NCBI GenBank assembly: GCA_002731275.1
Contig: PCBK01000162.1
Location: 1-64,000 of the forward strand
Reading direction: 5' to 3'
Source of the DNA: Deltaproteobacteria bacterium
GTDB lineage: Bacteria; Myxococcota_C; UBA6777
Length of the DNA: 64,000 nt
Both the position numbers and the translations under genes were made by a program. Positions 35,951 to 64,000 of this stretch are shown in pieces. How positions within the stretch are numbered: the stretch's first letter is position 1; each line of letters opens with the position of its first letter. The notes below the pieces were generated by a model that was given only the letters and a program-made list of their open reading frames with translations, was not told the DNA's origin and did not search any database.

Positions 35951-37678
35951 ATGACTAAGATTGTATATGCCGGCGTATTTGAGGGACTCGATCGGATCAA
36001 CCGTGGCTGGCGGATCTTGCGCTACCTTCAACAACACACAGATCAGCTCATGGCGGTCGGCTCTGGGCGCGCTTTTGCCGCTGTCGAAGAAGAGTTTGAA
36101 AACTGTTTTTACCTGATCTCACCCCCTCGTTACCTGCGTGGCCGAGATCGTGACAACTTTATGTGGGAAAAAAACCGCGTGTTGGGATCACGACTCGAAC
36201 ATTTTCGTCCCGATCTGATGATCCTCGATGGACAAACGTTCGCCGCACAGCTCGCGACCAAACAACGCATCCCCATCATCTCCATCGATCAATTGCACTT
36301 TTTTGCGCGTACCCGATTGGATATTCCGATCCCTCCAGCACAACTCGATAAGTACTTGCAGCAAAAAACCGCCGTAAAAAAACGTGGCTACCAGGCCGCA
36401 CATTACCTGTTGCCGATCTTCTTCCAACCTGAGGTGACAGCGGAACGTACCTCCCTTGCACCACCACTCCTTCGTGAAGGGGTTGAGGAAGTCACGCCAT
36501 CTGCCGGCGACGCGTTCGTGGCTTTTGGTTGGCATGGGATCCAAGATGATGTGCATGTCTTTGAGGCTCTTGAACAACCCATCGAGATTCAGATGCCTGT
36601 TGGTAAACGCCGCCGCAACAAAGAGCGCGTCGTCTCCGTCTCTGAAGTCCCCGATACAGAAGGGCGATTGGACGATTATTTCGAGGCGCTGCCTGCTCCT
36701 GAGCCTGACGAAGACAGTTACGATGAGAGCGAGCAAGAGAAACTCCAAAGTCACAGCGCCATTCGTAAGCGTCGGAAAGTGAAGCTCTCCGATGAGCTCG
36801 ATAGTATGGAGATGAACTCATTGCTCCCTGTCTCGACAAAGATGACGACCTACAAAGTCGCGCAGCCCGAGACATGGGGGAAGGCGATCGCGGACGCAAA
36901 AGCCGTGATGCTCGCTGGCGATCACACGCAAATTGCCGAAGCGATCTTCCTCAAAAAGCCCATTCTTATCATTCCTCAAAATGAGCGCATCGATCACTGG
37001 GTGTATGCTCACTATGTCGAAAAGATGGGCTTTGGCGAGCATCATCCACGACTGACACGTTCGGTCCTCGAAGGATTTCTTCAACGCCTCGAACGTTATC
37101 AGGCAAAACTCGATGCACACGAAAGTAAAGGCGCTGAGGCTTTCTTTGCGATGCTCGACGAGCAGATCAGGGAGTGCAAAGAAGTCAGACCCCAACGGAC
37201 CGAGCGTCCTCAACACGGGAAAGGTCAACGTGGTCCCCGGCGCGAGGGCGGACCCAGACGACAGGGGCAAGGAAGACGTCATGGTGGTCCAGCAAGAGAA
37301 GGAGGACCAAGGCGCGATGGTGGACCAAGGCACGAAGGCGGACCAAGACGCCATGGTGACTCCAGACGTGACGATGGCCCAAGACGTGACGATGGTCCAA
37401 GACGTGACGATGGCCCAAGGCGTGACGGTAGTTCGAGACGCGATGGTGGCCCAAGGCGCGACGGTGGGCCAAGACGCGATGGTGGGCCAAGACGTGACGG
37501 TGGGCCAAGACGTGATGGTGGGCCAAGACGTGACGGTGGGCAAAGACGTGACGGTGGTCCAAATTGGCAGGGTGGACCCCGAGACAAACAAGAAAGACAA
37601 GTCCAACAACCCAAGCCCAAACCCCGCAAGATGAGGCGTGTGTTCGATCCTTCAGCGCCAGACGACGACAAGTCTTGA
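35951..37678 (+). CDS. MurG-like glycosyltransferase with Arg/Gly-rich C-terminal tail
   Basis: The 575-residue protein has a GT-B-like fold. The N-terminal half starts MTKIVYAGVFEG and has a helix after GSGRAFAAV. An acidic insert lies near residues 235-275. The C-terminal half has AGDHTQIAEAIFLKKPILII, matching the donor-sugar region of GT28/MurG-type enzymes. After about residue 415 the protein becomes an Arg/Gly/Asp/Pro low-complexity tail made of GPRRDG-type hexapeptides, ending in a Lys/Arg segment. A nucleotide-sugar transferase is inferred; donor and acceptor are unknown. The start ATG lacks a strong ribosome-binding site. Confidence 0.75.
   Translation: MTKIVYAGVFEGLDRINRGWRILRYLQQHTDQLMAVGSGRAFAAVEEEFENCFYLISPPRYLRGRDRDNFMWEKNRVLGSRLEHFRPDLMILDGQTFAAQLATKQRIPIISIDQLHFFARTRLDIPIPPAQLDKYLQQKTAVKKRGYQAAHYLLPIFFQPEVTAERTSLAPPLLREGVEEVTPSAGDAFVAFGWHGIQDDVHVFEALEQPIEIQMPVGKRRRNKERVVSVSEVPDTEGRLDDYFEALPAPEPDEDSYDESEQEKLQSHSAIRKRRKVKLSDELDSMEMNSLLPVSTKMTTYKVAQPETWGKAIADAKAVMLAGDHTQIAEAIFLKKPILIIPQNERIDHWVYAHYVEKMGFGEHHPRLTRSVLEGFLQRLERYQAKLDAHESKGAEAFFAMLDEQIRECKEVRPQRTERPQHGKGQRGPRREGGPRRQGQGRRHGGPAREGGPRRDGGPRHEGGPRRHGDSRRDDGPRRDDGPRRDDGPRRDGSSRRDGGPRRDGGPRRDGGPRRDGGPRRDGGPRRDGGQRRDGGPNWQGGPRDKQERQVQQPKPKPRKMRRVFDPSAPDDDKS
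37290..37565 (+). repeat. 18-base repeats encoding the RGG-like tail
   Basis: About a dozen 18-base units (variants of ggtgggccaagacgtgac) run in tandem, encoding Gly-Gly-Pro-Arg-Arg-Asp. The last copies are nearly identical, pointing to recent slippage or recombination. This is coding sequence, not a CRISPR array: there are no spacers. Confidence 0.9.
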
Positions 37679-44904: not shown

Positions 44905-46794
44905 TTAGTAGAGTAGCGAGAAGGTCAGCACGACGCTCTGATCGATGTACCATTTGTCCAATTCATTCGTCGCAAGGATCGCTGGATCTCGTCGGATGCG
45001 CAAACGGTAAATAATCGACGCGTAGTGGGAAAGTCGTAAGATCAAAGAGGTCCGCCAGTCGATGTCAAAGTCGAAGAAGGACTGAAATTGACCGAGCGCA
45101 TCGAATTCGGTTGTGAAGGTAAAGAAGCGAGAGACAAATCCTGTCGCGACAAGCGCAAGCTCCAGACCCTCCCTGTGTGACGAAGGCTTGCGAAAGCGGA
45201 TGATATTTGAACGGTCAGTGACGCGCTCTGAGGGGGTCGAGCATCCACTCAGATCAAGTGGGTCATTGGGATTCACTTTGGACGCGTCGAGACATCGTTC
45301 TGTACTGACTTCGATCTGGTTGACGTTACGCGCGGACTCCTGACGAAACCCAATCCCAAGCAGTAAACGCAGATCAAACCAGGGAGTTCGAGGGGTTTGT
45401 AAGCTGATCCCGAACCCCTGTTTGAGCAAAAACGGATCGAAAAAGCTTCCAAGCTCTAGTGGGTCTGCTCCTTGACCCACGATGGAACGCGTAAAGGAGC
45501 ACTGACGCGCCCCGTTCCCGTCGAGCACACAATCGTACAAAGAGACCGGATAATCGAGATCAGCGTTGTCCTCGTTAAAGTAGAACGAGCGCGGAAAGAT
45601 CGAGGTTTCAAAACCCGCTCGAACGTAGGGTCCAAATAACGACAAGATCCGGTAAATATAAATGGATTGTAGACTGAGCAGATCCGACCCCTTTCGCAAG
45701 TTGAGCCCTGTCGAGGTAAAACCCAACTCGGCGTTGAGGGTCGTCAGAAAGAAGTGGGATTTTGTGTTGTACGTCAGGCGTCCAAACAAAAATGATGTCA
45801 GGCTGAAGGTGTGGCCGTTATTGGCTGCTGGCACATTCGCTTGCTGGTTCCAAATGAAGCTGCCGTTGAGCTGTAGGCTAAAGTTCCAACCACTGCCACG
45901 CTTGACGTATTTGTTGTTGAGGACGATCCCGCCACCGAGAAATTCGCCGGTGTTTCTATCTGCGACAAGACGAAAGAAGGTGACCTGTCCTTGGGTGATG
46001 CGAACCGTGAGGAAGTTGGTCCTCGCGAGATAGCTGTCTCCTGTACGTACGAGCATGTAGACTCCAGGAGGGAGCAACCATGCCTGTACTTTTTCACCGA
46101 TGTTGTCATCTGCACCGAGCCCTGTGCCGACGTTGAGTCGTGATTTGAGGTGGATGATGTCGTACCGTCCACGAAATTGAACGAGTCGTGTGTCGACAAC
46201 TCTCACAACAAGGGCTGCCCAGCGTGGTCGAAGGACTGTGAGCTTGTCCTTGTAAACTCTGATGCGGTATGTGGGGAGAAGGTCGGTGAGGCGGCGTCCG
46301 ACTTTGACTGTGTATATGCCTGGAGGGACGAAAGCTTTGCGACCTGTTTTGGCTGTGGCAAAGAGTCGGTTGTGTTTGTCGTAGACGAGATAAGAAGGGG
46401 CCCGCACGGCCGCAGAGCGTTTGATGATCAAGGGGACGAAGATCGCGCCGAGTCCCTTGGGGATCGGCATTTTGTCTTGTTCGATTTGCGCTTGTATTTC
46501 GCGCATCTCTTTGCGCACTTTGCGTTTGAGGACAGCGTTGAGTCCTGCGGTCATTTTGCCCAATTTGCTCGTCTGTTGAGGGGACAAGATAAACACATTG
46601 GGCCCTGTCCCTCGTTGAATCTTTCGTTTGGACCGTCGTTTGAATGTACGTTTGCGCTTTTTGGGGGCAGTGGGTTGCTGGGCATGAGCTGGTATCCACA
46701 GGAGCAAACACATCGTCGCGATGACGCTTTGTGTCCACCGTATCAGGCCAACAGGTGCGAGAGGGCAACCTGGACAGGTGTGGCTGTGTTTCAC
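44905..46794 (-). CDS. Predicted outer-membrane beta-barrel protein of the lipid-transport operon
   Basis: The 629-residue protein has a signal peptide (SVIATMCLLLWIPAHAQ), a Lys/Arg-rich linker, a periplasmic beta domain (about 115-290, with VPPGIYTVKV and LPPGVYMLVR repeats), and then from about 300 onward alternating amphipathic strands ending in SVVLTFSLLY. An aromatic last residue is typical of Bam-inserted barrels. It starts 24 bases after the MCE gene in the same operon, so it is a candidate outer-membrane partner for lipid transport. The GTG start has GGGAG ten bases upstream. No family name is recognised. Confidence 0.78.
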   Translation of the reverse strand: MKHSHTCPGCPLAPVGLIRWTQSVIATMCLLLWIPAHAQQPTAPKKRKRTFKRRSKRKIQRGTGPNVFILSPQQTSKLGKMTAGLNAVLKRKVRKEMREIQAQIEQDKMPIPKGLGAIFVPLIIKRSAAVRAPSYLVYDKHNRLFATAKTGRKAFVPPGIYTVKVGRRLTDLLPTYRIRVYKDKLTVLRPRWAALVVRVVDTRLVQFRGRYDIIHLKSRLNVGTGLGADDNIGEKVQAWLLPPGVYMLVRTGDSYLARTNFLTVRITQGQVTFFRLVADRNTGEFLGGGIVLNNKYVKRGSGWNFSLQLNGSFIWNQQANVPAANNGHTFSLTSFLFGRLTYNTKSHFFLTTLNAELGFTSTGLNLRKGSDLLSLQSIYIYRILSLFGPYVRAGFETSIFPRSFYFNEDNADLDYPVSLYDCVLDGNGARQCSFTRSIVGQGADPLELGSFFDPFLLKQGFGISLQTPRTPWFDLRLLLGIGFRQESARNVNQIEVSTERCLDASKVNPNDPLDLSGCSTPSERVTDRSNIIRFRKPSSHREGLELALVATGFVSRFFTFTTEFDALGQFQSFFDFDIDWRTSLILRLSHYASIIYRLRIRRDPAILATNELDKWYIDQSVVLTFSLLY

Positions 46795-46818: not shown

Positions 46819-48186
46819 CTATTTTTTGATCACGCGACCTGCGCCTCTGGCTTTCTTAAACTCGGAGTCCGAACGTTTGATGATAAATCGTACCATTTGG
46901 CGGAAGATACGTGTCCTCTTGATCTGTCCAAGGACGACCTTGAGATCCTCAAAGGCTGTGGGGTCGTTGATGATCGCTCCAAGCGTTCCTTTTCCTCGTC
47001 GGATATCTTTCATGATGGTGCGTACGTCATTGCTCGCTTTGGTCAGGTTGGTGAGCAACGCTGCGCTCTTTTTCTCGTACAAGAGTTTGTACAAGAGGGT
47101 GTTTTTGGTCTGTGGTGCTTTGGCGATCTTATTGATGGAGACCATCGTCTCACGTGCGTTGCGCACGAGCAACTTGAGATCGTAAGCGAGACGACCACCT
47201 TGTTTGGACATCAACAACCGACGAACCAATGTTCCGGGTTTTTGGATGCGTTTGAGGAACCATTCGATCTGTGCGATTGTTTGTTTCAGATTTTTTCCGA
47301 TGCCTTCGAGTTGACGAAGGATACCACGCAAGCGGTTTCGGACGGGGATGCTGTAGAAGAGGTCGTGCATGAGGCCGGGACCTTTTTCTGCTCTTGTGAG
47401 CAATCCATTGACGGAGGAGACGATCCCCTTGAGGTTGTGAGCGAGCTCTGGGTCTCGGTACTGTTTGAGGATTTTGTCGATGCTGCGGAGTGATTCTTTG
47501 ACGCGATCCATGACACGTCCGCCATCTTCCATAAAGTCAGACATCCCTTTCGGGGTCACACCTGTGATCCAGGCTCCCGATTGCACTGTGTTTGGACTCG
47601 TCCCCACTGTGATGTTGACGAGGGCATCTCCGAGCAAACCCTTGCCTTCGACGGTTGCGATGGAGTCAGTGCGGATCCACTTGAGGATGTTGCGTGAGAC
47701 TTTCATCCGCACATACACGAACTTCTGTTTTACCGGTACACAGCGAAGTTTGTACTCTTGACAGCGTCCCTGATCCCTATCACAGAGGTCTTCAAAGGAC
47801 AGGCACTTCTTTGTGAAGTCGCTACACTCTGCGTTGTAACGCGGACAGCTCGCTTTGTTTTTGGAGCAACGTACGCGCATTTTGAGACACCTTCTCTTGA
47901 GCAGCTGCCATTGTGGGCCGCCGTCGATGCCTTTTGTCTGCTTTTTGAACTTTTCACCTCGGTTAAGCTCGATATTGTCGACGACACCTACTTTGAGTCC
48001 TGCGAGACGGACCTGAGAACCGACTGCGAGCCCCGACACTTTTGAAAATGATGAGTAAAGAGTCGCTTGTGACTCGAAGGTCTGATTTGCGCTGCCGATA
48101 ATAAATGTCATGGCGCCACCCACCACGAGGGCGAGCAGAAGGAATATGCCGACCTTGAGTTCCGTGGAACCTTGTCGTTGTGACAT
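46819..48186 (-). CDS. MlaD-like MCE-domain protein with a cysteine-ladder insert
   Basis: The 455-residue periplasmic protein is anchored by one N-terminal helix (KVGIFLLLALVVGGAMTF). The MCE domain (about residues 40-190) has VSGLAVGSQVRLAGLKVG at the start and KGLLGDALVNITVG at the end. Between its strands lies an insert of about 60 residues with eight Cys at residues 100, 107, 114, 121, 128, 135, 142 and 149, exactly seven apart. Long coiled-coil-like helices follow. MlaD homologues form hexameric lipid shuttles. The start at 48186 has GGAG six bases upstream. It lies 32 bases after the ATPase gene. Confidence 0.9.
   Translation of the reverse strand: MSQRQGSTELKVGIFLLLALVVGGAMTFIIGSANQTFESQATLYSSFSKVSGLAVGSQVRLAGLKVGVVDNIELNRGEKFKKQTKGIDGGPQWQLLKRRCLKMRVRCSKNKASCPRYNAECSDFTKKCLSFEDLCDRDQGRCQEYKLRCVPVKQKFVYVRMKVSRNILKWIRTDSIATVEGKGLLGDALVNITVGTSPNTVQSGAWITGVTPKGMSDFMEDGGRVMDRVKESLRSIDKILKQYRDPELAHNLKGIVSSVNGLLTRAEKGPGLMHDLFYSIPVRNRLRGILRQLEGIGKNLKQTIAQIEWFLKRIQKPGTLVRRLLMSKQGGRLAYDLKLLVRNARETMVSINKIAKAPQTKNTLLYKLLYEKKSAALLTNLTKASNDVRTIMKDIRRGKGTLGAIINDPTAFEDLKVVLGQIKRTRIFRQMVRFIIKRSDSEFKKARGAGRVIKK
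47740..47889 (-). other. Segment encoding the eight-cysteine heptad ladder
   Basis: Codons for eight cysteines occur every 21 bases across this stretch. The spacer residues between them vary freely, so the periodicity is in the Cys positions and not the result of a simple DNA repeat. Confidence 0.92.
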
Positions 48187-48218
48187 GACTTCTCCTTCCA
48201 GGTCTATGGCTATGAGGC

Positions 48219-48995
48219 TCACTCCTCGTCAGGAATGCCTCTGAGAAAGTTTTGAATCGCCGGATCACTTGCGGCCCTCATCTCTTGGACCGTCCCAAGT
48301 TTGTAAATGTGACGGTCTTTGAGGAAGGCGATACGATCTGAGAAATAAAACGCTCCACCCATATCGTGTGTGATGACGATGGAGGTGACACCGCGTTCTT
48401 GTTGAATTTGTCGGATCAGTTTGTTGATCACGACGGTGCTCTCTGGATCGAGTCCAGTCGTGGGCTCGTCGTAGAGGATGACTTCGGGTTCCATGACGAC
48501 AGAGCGTGCGAGCCCGATGAGTTTTTTGACGCCCCCTGAGAGTTCACCTGGATAACGATGTTGTAACTCTTGGGGAACGTTGATCAGTGACAGTTGGTTG
48601 GTGACACGTTCTGTGATCTCTTCTTCTGAGAGTTTCAGATGGACGCGCAGTGGGTAAGCGATATTTTCAAAGACCGTCAGAGAGTCGAATAAGGCCGCGA
48701 GCTGAAAAACCATCGAGATTTTTTTGCGGACGTCGATCATCTCGTGATCTTTGAGCGGAGCGAGGTCGAGATCGTGGAACAAGACCTGGCCTTCGTCTGG
48801 TTTGAGCAGGCCGATGAGCATCTTGATCATGACGCTCTTACCTGTCCCAGAGCCTCCCAAGACAGTGAGCGTCTCACCCGGGTAAATGTTGAAGTGCAGA
48901 TCATCGTAGATCTTTTTGGGTCCAAAAGCCTTCTTGACGTGGACGTACTGGATGATCGGGTCGACACCTGACTGATGGGGGAGTGGTCTTTGCAT
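48219..48995 (-). CDS. mlaF: MlaF-like ABC transporter ATPase
   Basis: The 258-residue cytoplasmic ATPase powers an MlaE-type lipid permease. It has Walker A GGSGTGKSVM, Q-loop VFQLAALFDSLT, signature LSGGVKKLIGLARS, Walker B VILYDEPTTGLDP and the ITHD switch His. The LSGGVKKLI variant and the ALFDSLTV region are typical of MlaF. GAGGT lies five bases before the ATG; the gap from the MlaE gene is eight bases. Confidence 0.95.
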   Translation of the reverse strand: MQRPLPHQSGVDPIIQYVHVKKAFGPKKIYDDLHFNIYPGETLTVLGGSGTGKSVMIKMLIGLLKPDEGQVLFHDLDLAPLKDHEMIDVRKKISMVFQLAALFDSLTVFENIAYPLRVHLKLSEEEITERVTNQLSLINVPQELQHRYPGELSGGVKKLIGLARSVVMEPEVILYDEPTTGLDPESTVVINKLIRQIQQERGVTSIVITHDMGGAFYFSDRIAFLKDRHIYKLGTVQEMRAASDPAIQNFLRGIPDEE

Positions 48996-49003
48996 GCTCT
49001 ACC

Positions 49004-49792
49004 TCAGATGATCATCATCAACAGCTTGGTCAAAAAGAAGTCACTGACGAGGACACTGATACTGATAAGCTCGACAGTTCCTGTTGTGGATTGCCCTACG
49101 CCTTGTGTCCCGCCGCTTGTGTTAAAGCCTTGGTAACAGCCAATGATCGCGACGAGAAAACCAAATACGACGCTCTTGGCCAGACCACTAAAAAGGTCGG
49201 AGAGATCCACAATATCGAGGACGGAGCGGTAAAAGAACAATGGCGCGATATCGAATTGTGCAGAGGAGAGGGCAGAGGCACCGAGGAGCCCTACGAGATC
49301 TGCGAGGACCGTGAGCAGAGGCATGATCAAAATGCTCGCGGCGAGGCGTGGCACGATCAATTTTTTGATGGGGTCAGCCCCCAACGCTCTGATCGCGTCG
49401 ATCTGCTCACCGACCTTCATCGAGCCTAACTCTGCTGCCATCCCGCTGCCAATCCGACCACCAACGATCAACGCTGTAAGGACAGGAGCCAGCTCTCTTA
49501 ACAACGCAACTGCGACGACTGGACCGACGTAATCCTGGGCACCAAATTTGGCTAGACCAAACGCAAACTGTAGCGCCAAGACAGAGCCGACAGCTGCGGC
49601 TGTAAGGAGACCAATGCGCAATGAGTTCACACCGAGCAGCTCGATCTGCATGATCACGTCCCGGAATGAGTAAGGAGGCATCAGCATACGCCACACCGCT
49701 CCCCACGCCAGGATCGCGATCGAGCCTGTAAACTCGATGAGCCGAATTGCTCGGCTTCCGAGACTTTCTATCAACGCTGTGATGAGCTTCAT
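49004..49792 (-). CDS. mlaE: MlaE-like lipid ABC permease
   Basis: The 262-residue inner-membrane permease has five to six hydrophobic segments and the family hallmarks LLRELAPVLTALIVGGRIGSG, then AAELGSMKVGEQIDAI and RALGADPIKKLIVPR. It moves phospholipid between the inner membrane and the MlaD-like hexamer. Its start overlaps the upstream lipoprotein stop by ATGA. Confidence 0.95.
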   Translation of the reverse strand: MKLITALIESLGSRAIRLIEFTGSIAILAWGAVWRMLMPPYSFRDVIMQIELLGVNSLRIGLLTAAAVGSVLALQFAFGLAKFGAQDYVGPVVAVALLRELAPVLTALIVGGRIGSGMAAELGSMKVGEQIDAIRALGADPIKKLIVPRLAASILIMPLLTVLADLVGLLGASALSSAQFDIAPLFFYRSVLDIVDLSDLFSGLAKSVVFGFLVAIIGCYQGFNTSGGTQGVGQSTTGTVELISISVLVSDFFLTKLLMMII

Positions 49793-50361
49793 GAACGAAA
49801 TACCTGAAATCCGTAAATCACGCGGTGAAAGGTGTTGATGCCTCGCTTGAAGTTCCAGGGGCGCGTGATGTAGGCGAAGTCAAAAATGCACTCATTTTTT
49901 TTGATGACGAGGAGGGCTGCTTGCACGGAGACGCCGTCAAGTGTCGCTTTTAACTCCGTGTACAGAGCGTCACGTCGATCGATTTTTCGTTTCTCTTGGA
50001 TGATAAATTTGCGGTCTCTGAATCCGTAGATCAGGTGGTCTGTGAGGTTCTTAAGGGTTGTATCCTCATAGTCCTTTCGACATGTCGCGTTGATCTGCAC
50101 GATCGCTTTGTACTGGCTGTTGTAAAAGGCGATGTCATTTTGTGTGAATTTGACCTTCCGCCAATCTCGATTGACTTGGCCGATTTTGTATTCGAGTGGG
50201 CCTTTGTGATAGACCCAGTTGCCATCGAGTCCTTTTCGTGTGCAACCCAAAAGCCCCCACATCATCGATAACATGAGGCACGCTATACTCACGCGTCGGA
50301 GTGTGCGCTTGAGTGTGAACAGCAACGTTGGACGGTATGAAACCATAGTGTTTGCTCTCAT
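49789..50361 (-). CDS. Lipoprotein of the lipid-transport operon
   Basis: The 190-residue protein has a hydrophobic stretch ending WGLLGC, so Cys40 is the likely lipidation site. The mature part has no recognised family. It overlaps both neighbours by four bases (ATGA upstream with the ATPase, ATGA downstream with MlaE), so it is translated with the transport machinery. An ATG at 50346 with GAGAG upstream is an alternative start. It may be an adaptor, acting where MlaC or LptE-type proteins act in other systems; this is inference only. Confidence 0.75.
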   Translation of the reverse strand: MRANTMVSYRPTLLFTLKRTLRRVSIACLMLSMMWGLLGCTRKGLDGNWVYHKGPLEYKIGQVNRDWRKVKFTQNDIAFYNSQYKAIVQINATCRKDYEDTTLKNLTDHLIYGFRDRKFIIQEKRKIDRRDALYTELKATLDGVSVQAALLVIKKNECIFDFAYITRPWNFKRGINTFHRVIYGFQVFRS

Positions 50362-61670: not shown

Positions 61671-64000
61671 ATGGCAGAAGAAGAAATCCTTAACTATTTG
61701 CGAATCCTAGAAGCGGTTCCCTCCAATGTTCCAGCCTTCGAAGCTCTTAAGCAGATTTATACCGAAGCAGAACGTTGGGAAGAACTGGCCAAGCTTTATG
61801 AAGACCGAGCGGAACGGCTCCCTGATCAAAGTCAGGTGCCAGCTCTGTATCTTCAGGCGGCAGTGTTGCGCTATCACCGATTAAAGGACATCGCAGGAGC
61901 AAAGCAGGCGATTTCCAAAGTATTGGAAAGCCAACCTAACCACAAACAGGCTCTTGGTCTTTGGCGTCAAATTGCGATGGCCGAAGAAGACTATGCCATG
62001 GCCATCAAGATTCTGCGTCAGGAGACGCAGCTGACTGACGATGTCCAGGAGAAAGCGTCACGTTTTGTGGAGATTGCGAAACTCTTTGAGACGCATCTCG
62101 ACAATGACGATCACGCCGCGGTGGCTTACCACCAGGCGTTTTTGCTTTCTCCCACAGCGCTCGAAGCGATGGACAATGCTTTGCGCCTGTACAAAAAAGT
62201 TGGAGAGTGGCAACGCGTCATCGCGGTCCTTCGCGCTCGACTTGAGAGTGTGAATGATGCGACTGAGAAAGCGCGCTTACTCTACCAAATCGGGGATATT
62301 TTCCTTCGTCAACTCGACGAAGGTCGTACCCCCGAAGGGCAAGAGAAAGCCTCCCAACTCTTCAAAGAGGCACTCGAGCTCGACCCCGAACAAGAAGACG
62401 CCAAAGAGGCCCTCGAAGAGCTTCAATATGAACTCGAAGATTGGAGCTCTTTGCTCAAACGATTGAAAAAGGAAATCCGGAAATCTTCCGATACTCCCGA
62501 TCGTGCAGCCTTCTTGAACTACAAAATTGCAGAAGGTTACTATCGACGCGAAGGCAAGCCTGCTTACGCGATTCGTTACTGTAAGCAAGCGCTTGAACTC
62601 AAAGGGACACACACCAAGTCTCTTGACTTGATCCAAAAGCTCTATGCAGAGCTTGGCAAGTGGGAAGCGCTCGCGGACTTTTTAACGGATCGGTCTGAAA
62701 AGGCAGATGACGTCGAGAGTAAAGTGATGTGGTTGAAGAAGTTGACAGAGCTTCATAAAGACCACACACAAGAGCGCGATCGCGAAATCGAGACACTCGA
62801 ACGCATCATCGATATCCAGCCAAATGAGATGGAGACGTTGTTGCGACTTGAGTCGATCTACCGCGAAGACAGTCGCTTCTCCAAAGCACTTGGTGTGATG
62901 GAGAAACGCTTGGCCATCGCAAGCGAAGACTCCGAGAAGAAGAGTCTTTTGTACAATATGGCCGAGATTGCTCATCGCGAACTCGAACGCCGCGAACAAG
63001 CTGCACAATACTACGAAGACATTCTCAGTATTGATGAAGACGATGTCGATGCAATCGATGCCTTGTTGCCTCTCTACGAGAAAGAAGGCGACTGGGAGAA
63101 GTTGATCGGTGGACACGAGCGTCGCCTCGCACACACGAGTGACAAAATCGAACGAGCACAAATTCACACTCGTATCGGTGATATCTACGGAAACCAACTC
63201 TCTCTGTCCAAAGAAGCTTTCGACGCTTATACACAAGCGCTCCGAGAGAACCCACAAGACAATGAGCTGACTGAAAAACTCGAAAGTCTCGCCCGCCAAA
63301 TCGGGAACTGGCAAGAGATGATCGAGCTTTATCGCAGCACGCTCGACCTCGCCGAGGATCCAGGCGACCAAGCCGCACTTCACTTCCGTATCGGTGACAC
63401 GTATGAACGCGAAATCGGCAATGTCGAACTCGCACGTCGTTCTTACGAGGAAGCACTGGAGTTCGCTCCCCATCTCGAAACGATGAATGCACTCCAACGC
63501 ATCTATCGTCAATCCGAAGAGTGGATCGAGCTCGCTGAGTTGCTGAAGGAAAAATCCAAAGCAGAAGCCCTCGAAAAAGAAGAACGCATCACCGTCCTTC
63601 AAGAGCTCGCACGTATCCAGGAAAGTCACATCGATGATCCCGATGGTGCTGCCGAAGCTTACGAAACGATCCTCGAATTCGAAGAAGCTCACCAACACTC
63701 TCTCGAGTCCCTCGAACGCATCTACAAACAAACTGAAAATTGGGAGTCCTTGCGCGGCGTATACCAACGTCGTATTGACAACCCAACCTCCGAAGGCGAG
63801 CTGAAGTCCACACTTCATATCCTCGGTAGTTTGTTGATCGAAAAGCTCGAAGCGCTCGACGGAGCTGTTCCCATCTACCAAAGACTTCGTGTCCTTGATG
63901 AGCACGATAACCTCGTCCTCACACGTCTCGAAGAACTCTTCCGTCAGCTTGAGCGATGGGAAGAATGGGTGGAAACAGCACGTGGTCGTGCTGACAGCAT
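61671..64000 (+). CDS. Large TPR-repeat protein, truncated by the window edge
   Basis: The frame is open from ATG 61671 to the last base (more than 776 codons), so the C-terminus is outside. It has no signal peptide or membrane segment at the N-terminus (MAEEEILNYLRILEAVPSN). The visible part consists almost only of TPR-like helical pairs with a conserved 34-38-residue pattern, for example RIGDIYGNQLSLSKEAFDAY and RIGDTYEREIGNVELARRSY, and conserved WEELAKLYE or WQEMIELYR segments. Such long cytosolic TPR proteins are common in myxobacteria and act as scaffolds. The start has AGGA about ten bases upstream. Confidence 0.85.
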   Translation, partial: MAEEEILNYLRILEAVPSNVPAFEALKQIYTEAERWEELAKLYEDRAERLPDQSQVPALYLQAAVLRYHRLKDIAGAKQAISKVLESQPNHKQALGLWRQIAMAEEDYAMAIKILRQETQLTDDVQEKASRFVEIAKLFETHLDNDDHAAVAYHQAFLLSPTALEAMDNALRLYKKVGEWQRVIAVLRARLESVNDATEKARLLYQIGDIFLRQLDEGRTPEGQEKASQLFKEALELDPEQEDAKEALEELQYELEDWSSLLKRLKKEIRKSSDTPDRAAFLNYKIAEGYYRREGKPAYAIRYCKQALELKGTHTKSLDLIQKLYAELGKWEALADFLTDRSEKADDVESKVMWLKKLTELHKDHTQERDREIETLERIIDIQPNEMETLLRLESIYREDSRFSKALGVMEKRLAIASEDSEKKSLLYNMAEIAHRELERREQAAQYYEDILSIDEDDVDAIDALLPLYEKEGDWEKLIGGHERRLAHTSDKIERAQIHTRIGDIYGNQLSLSKEAFDAYTQALRENPQDNELTEKLESLARQIGNWQEMIELYRSTLDLAEDPGDQAALHFRIGDTYEREIGNVELARRSYEEALEFAPHLETMNALQRIYRQSEEWIELAELLKEKSKAEALEKEERITVLQELARIQESHIDDPDGAAEAYETILEFEEAHQHSLESLERIYKQTENWESLRGVYQRRIDNPTSEGELKSTLHILGSLLIEKLEALDGAVPIYQRLRVLDEHDNLVLTRLEELFRQLERWEEWVETARGRADS

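Follow-up and report, generated by a model that had tools for sequence, protein, structure and literature searches.

The question raised by this locus is why the MlaD-like subunit of a lipid transporter carries eight cysteines at a strictly constant interval, and what such an arrangement might do. The window, the 64,000 nucleotides of contig PCBK01000162.1 analysed here, encodes on its reverse strand an MlaD-like MCE protein of 455 residues (46819..48186, counted from the ATG) with cysteine at residues 100, 107, 114, 121, 128, 135, 142 and 149 and nowhere else. This (C-x6) array spans residues 100-149 (47740..47889, reverse strand), and its seven spacers are all different (LKMRVR, SKNKAS, PRYNAE, SDFTKK, LSFEDL, DRDQGR and QEYKLR), so that the exact seven-residue period with varied spacers described in the first-pass annotation proved correct, with the coordinates 47740-47889 exact. 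Given eight cysteines in a span of 50 residues, exactly equal spacing has a probability of 1/C(48,6) = 8e-8, or about 1 in 12 million, and cysteine accounts for 1.1% of the residues in 27 long genes of the window. The seven-residue spacing is not due to chance.

The assignment of the protein to the MCE/MlaD family, made at first pass from the sequence, is borne out by two types of comparison. Pfam MlaD (PF02470) matches at 43.8 bits (cut-off 25.1; E 3.1e-11) over profile positions 4-39 of 81, a match that ends where the insert begins, and the core of a full-length model, which was built with seven relatives, superposes on E. coli MlaD (5uw8) with a VIA Z of 16.6 and an rmsd of 1.6 over 98 residues. 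The NCBIfam equivalog model for MlaD (TIGR04430) was not reached (68.1 bits against a cut-off of 135), and for this reason “MlaD-like” is the right name rather than MlaD equivalog. A transmembrane helix is predicted at residues 5-35 and a helical C-terminal tail at residues 215-437, while the MCE barrel occupies about residues 38-212 of the model, its strands having a pLDDT of about 75-80. By homology with MlaD, for which the complex has been described (PMC7790496), the MCE domain would face the periplasm. The reading frame is open over 46819-48222 (reverse strand), with no stop through the entire single-pass MCE protein; translation probably begins at the ATG at 48186, and an upstream GTG at 48222 is a possible alternative.

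As expected for this family, the gene is encoded together with a permease and an ATPase. All genes concerned are on the reverse strand. Upstream are an MlaF-like ATPase (48219..48995; Pfam ABC_tran, E 3.3e-31), whose stop codon overlaps the possible GTG start at 48222, an MlaE-like permease (49004..49792; Pfam MlaE, E 7.1e-72) and a predicted lipoprotein (49789..50361) with a lipobox-like MMWGLLGC recognised by eye, the gene for which keeps the same position in relatives. Downstream is the gene for a probable outer-membrane beta-barrel protein (44905..46794; weak match to Pfam DUF3078, E 6.6e-6), and a similar gene also follows mlaD in the relatives. The complete order of lipoprotein, MlaE permease, MlaF ATPase, MCE protein and probable outer-membrane protein is shared with them. 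The product of 44905-46794 is a candidate for a partner protein accepting lipid instead of MlaC/MlaA. Apart from the insert, the transporter is an ordinary MlaEFD-like system.

The cysteines lie within an insert in the MCE domain, as had been proposed at first pass and as both the model and the alignment confirm. Model secondary structure, loop lengths and alignment together delimit an enlarged hairpin loop of residues 76-155 (47722..47961, reverse strand), located between predicted strand 3 (64-75) and strand 4 (156-164) of the barrel. With loop length taken as the stretch between strand 3 and the pore loop, as matched by a regular expression that mis-parsed a few additional sequences, the window's protein has 113 residues, and 19 other MCE proteins, which come from diverse genomes, have 33-40. 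Within the family, metagenome genomes labelled Myxococcales or Myxococcota that contribute orthologues from other genera, it has 64 (G001) or 76 residues (G002, G004) in orthologues and 119 residues in paralogues (G002, G004), which indicates that the strand-3/4 site tolerates inserts. A contig search of genomes with the single MCE protein gave no match, and one with the family alignment returned the same three genomes.

The three orthologues (41-46% identity), found among the four other family genomes examined, have the enlarged loop and no cysteine in the whole protein, and the two paralogues from these four genomes have none in the enlarged loop. The conservation in relatives that the first-pass annotation had named as a check on the eight cysteines, with its absence as a ground for refutation, is thus lacking in 3/3 orthologues, although all come from other genera, and the transporter does not need them. 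Among the genomes compared, the enlarged hairpin appears to belong to the family and the cysteines to the genus of the window's genome alone. None of 26 other MCE stretches that run between strand 3 and the pore loop, selected by the regular expression, contains a C-x6 array, which upholds the earlier remark that the pattern is not familiar from MCE proteins; we know of no such array in another member. The paralogues (L112:1609-2994 and L113:1609-2994) lie in tandem beside the orthologue, and their strand-3/4 loop of 119 residues has many charged residues and no cysteine.

C-x6 arrays were also encountered in other exported proteins. DNA pattern searches for 5, 6 or 8 spaced TGY codons were swamped by 21-base minisatellites and their shadow frames, and after filtering by frame and unit identity only two arrays of the window's genome remained; the same filter applied to 120 viral stretches left one cysteine-dense protein of a different kind. 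The second array of the window's genome occurs in an orphan predicted lipoprotein (L057:5967-6872, forward strand), where 12 cysteines between beta-like segments keep a seven-residue register save for one 8-residue step. It is also free of a DNA repeat, as judged from the pattern search of this genome. This lipoprotein has 18 non-lipid cysteines in all, and no relatives were found in 60 genomes beyond one minisatellite match. A profile derived from these two arrays (A2) was insensitive to unrelated arrays, for which reason its negative results were disregarded. A profile of cysteines only, with random spacers (A5), was applied to 195 genomes of the phylum of G032 and 386 across the domain, and almost all of its matches were minisatellites. 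As this profile recovered the MCE array with an E of 0.006 but missed the lipoprotein array, with candidates only partly scored, the rarity of C-x6 arrays is an impression rather than a measured rate.

The one exception among the A5 matches was a large predicted lipoprotein in G154, which combines a carboxypeptidase-regulatory-like domain with Reg_prop propeller repeats. Its array has 25 cysteines overall, 16 of them in uninterrupted register. An orthologue in G292, from another genus of the same phylum, which is not that of the window, keeps 25/25 of the array cysteines, while identity is 33% for the other array residues and 38% for the rest of the protein (L325:2160-5156 and L336:2797-5730, both forward strand). 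Neither Pfam nor NCBIfam has a match to the array, whose spacers are rich in proline and glycine. Retained cysteine spacing with free spacers is the pattern expected for disulfides, and this pair shows most clearly that arrays of this type can be selected for their cysteines and little else.

The arrays resemble one another in several respects. All are located in exported proteins, between beta elements, and the numbers of non-lipid cysteines are even (8; 18; 30 and 36). C-x6 occurs 8 to 16 times in a row with diverse spacers, and every array contains one C-x-x-D heptad (CDRDQGRC, CPTDDPQC and CTVDGSAC). The arrays in L057, L325 and L336 differ from that of the MCE protein in their host folds and in having more proline and glycine in the spacers, and the propeller pair also in the conservation of its cysteines between genera. 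With the cysteines held fixed, the similarity between the MCE and L057 arrays does not exceed that of shuffled arrays (p = 0.69), and a profile made from the L057 array alone did not find the MCE array. The MCE array is a repeated C-x6 without a DNA repeat in an exported protein, and no sign of common descent with the lipoprotein array emerged from these comparisons; their likeness could be convergence. The array is not specific to MCE proteins; it belongs to a wider pattern of C-x6 arrays in exported proteins that has no name as yet.

Some further leads were discarded. A tblastn search in plasmids returned only unannotated or IS-flanked stretches with coincident cysteines. A 14-residue double repeat in the L057 array, suggested by the 42-base autocorrelation (p < 0.001), was not upheld at the protein level. 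Rusticalin (Cx6Cx6-7Cx8Cx7CC, defensin-like; PMC6339383) was set aside as an animal protein of irregular spacing.

Of the possible explanations for the array, we favour an oxidised, disulfide-braced insert on the enlarged hairpin of an MlaD-type ring that is ordinary in other respects, an account to which we assign a probability of roughly 55%. The reasons are that all eight cysteines are in the insert and even in number, that other arrays of this type occur in exported proteins, and that VKOR, a disulfide-forming enzyme, is encoded once in each of 5/5 family genomes. Formation of disulfides in the envelope is therefore plausible, as is the oxidising environment that the first-pass annotation had assumed for the MCE domain. 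In this account, an MlaD-type subunit of an MlaEFD-like lipid transporter has an enlarged strand-3/strand-4 hairpin in common with its family relatives, and this hairpin has acquired a (C-x6)n array in the genus of the window's genome. The eight cysteines would most likely pair to give four disulfides per insert in the oxidising envelope, and these could confer a fixed, protease-resistant shape on a poorly structured segment projecting from the ring, where it may serve as a structural or docking appendage. We infer disulfide formation, pairing within rather than between subunits, and the role as an appendage from the combined evidence. A more general proposal, which we regard as possible and hold at somewhat less than even odds, is that (C-x6)n arrays constitute an undescribed class of disulfide-rich insert in hairpins of exported beta-domain proteins of several phyla, with only the cysteine spacing under selection, and that six copies would form a disulfide-braced collar on the MCE ring.

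The first-pass annotation had offered a different structural reading, in which every cysteine lies on one face of a helix or coiled coil. Seven residues correspond to about two helical turns, hydrophobic residues are frequent at heptad position d (M, N, Y, F, F, D, Y, V), and the full-length model does place helices at residues 91-109 and 117-129. By eye, the loop of the paralogue in relatives also looks helical. However, pLDDT in the insert is mostly 27-47 in that model, and the insert folded alone, with no alignment, has hardly any helix (pLDDT 49). The insert residues other than cysteine have no helical amphipathicity (p = 0.67), the array itself contains one proline and one glycine, and the other C-x6 arrays are rich in both (8 Pro among 64 residues in one, 11 Pro and 11 Gly among 106 in another), unlike a continuous helix. 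A helix deduced from the heptad is an argument from geometry only. With models that conflict at low confidence and no amphipathicity beyond the cysteines, the one-face arrangement and the coiled-coil reading, which we consider unlikely, are unsupported rather than refuted.

It was also suggested that disulfides link the inserts of adjacent subunits, so tying the hexamer together or gating the lateral entry of lipid by redox state. Six subunits would gather 48 cysteines, and a precedent exists in E. coli MlaD, where engineered cysteines between neighbouring alpha-1 helices block transport and a reductant restores it in single mutants (PMC11289387), so that disulfides in an MlaD ring can control transport. 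The insert, however, is on the strand-3/4 hairpin and not on the central helices tested in E. coli, and no model puts it where subunits meet. Since arrays of this type are also found in proteins with no known ring, a ring is not needed to explain them. Cross-linking between subunits we judge to be improbable, and disulfides within each insert remain our preferred interpretation.

The array might instead be the functionless remnant of a 21-base tandem expansion, as 21-base repeats with in-frame cysteine codons are frequent in the relatives and such minisatellites are very common in the genomes of the family. Tandem Repeats Finder found no repeat in the DNA of the array, and the 21-base autocorrelation with the cysteines fixed was not significant (p = 0.07), those at 42 and 63 bases with the cysteine codons fixed being unremarkable. 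The 21-base units have a mean identity of 0.37, near the value given by the cysteine codons alone, so there is no similarity between units beyond these codons, yet eight cysteines and seven spacings are exact. Exact spacings with diverged units would not be left by drift without selection, which makes a remnant very unlikely. Base composition (49% G+C, against 51% for the genome) gives no sign of recent import, and a PDB sequence search with the insert as query gave no match. A role in binding metal ions, as a thiolate cluster or a copper/zinc store, was also raised in view of eight thiols within 50 residues, but it is without support and hardly to be expected of an insert that has no histidine, no CxC or CxxC spacing and one methionine, in an exported protein from a genome encoding a disulfide-forming enzyme.

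Among known systems, E. coli MlaD (MlaFEDB; PDB 5uw2, 5uw8, 6xbd) is alike in its N-terminal transmembrane helix, MCE barrel, pore-loop motif GLLG and C-terminal helix, and in being encoded with MlaE and MlaF. It lacks the strand-3/4 insert and has a much shorter C-terminus, whereas the protein described here has an 80-residue loop with eight cysteines and a tail of >200 residues. MlaD of A. baumannii also has a large insert in the barrel, 47 residues long and helical, between strands 4 and 5, the function of which was stated to be unclear (PMC7677376; PDB 7d06, 6z5u). That insert comes one hairpin later, is helical in the map and has no cysteine array; the two insertion sites appear to differ, as deduced from the strand order in the sequences. 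Veillonella parvula has a long “transenvelope” MlaD to which a beta-barrel is fused (PMC10665443). This resembles the present system in the long helical region after the MCE domain and in a minimal MlaEFD with no MlaC in the operon, and differs in that the window has a separate gene for the probable barrel and in that no cysteine array was reported.

If our interpretation is right, the rings of MCE lipid transporters accept large lineage-specific appendages at a second hairpin (strand 3/4), a site that adds to the strand-4/5 insert known from Acinetobacter. Also, exact seven-residue cysteine arrays would recur in unrelated exported proteins without having a Pfam or NCBIfam name. This raises the folding question of what structure an oxidised chain adopts when every seventh position is cysteine and the spacers are almost free.

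Some minor observations were made in the course of this analysis. Two of the family genomes, G002 and G004, are full of 21-base minisatellites (e.g. L101, L102, L103, L104, L119 and L128), mostly intergenic or in shadow frames, and several of these share one unit at different places (e.g. the PRFLSRC / PRFISRC frames). Elsewhere in the window, an open frame of 407 residues (62682-63905, reverse strand) encodes 18 cysteines and has no Pfam match at E 0.01, and an 18-base tandem repeat of about 11 copies (37273-37562) overlaps a glycosyltransferase-like gene (35951-37678) in its 3' part.
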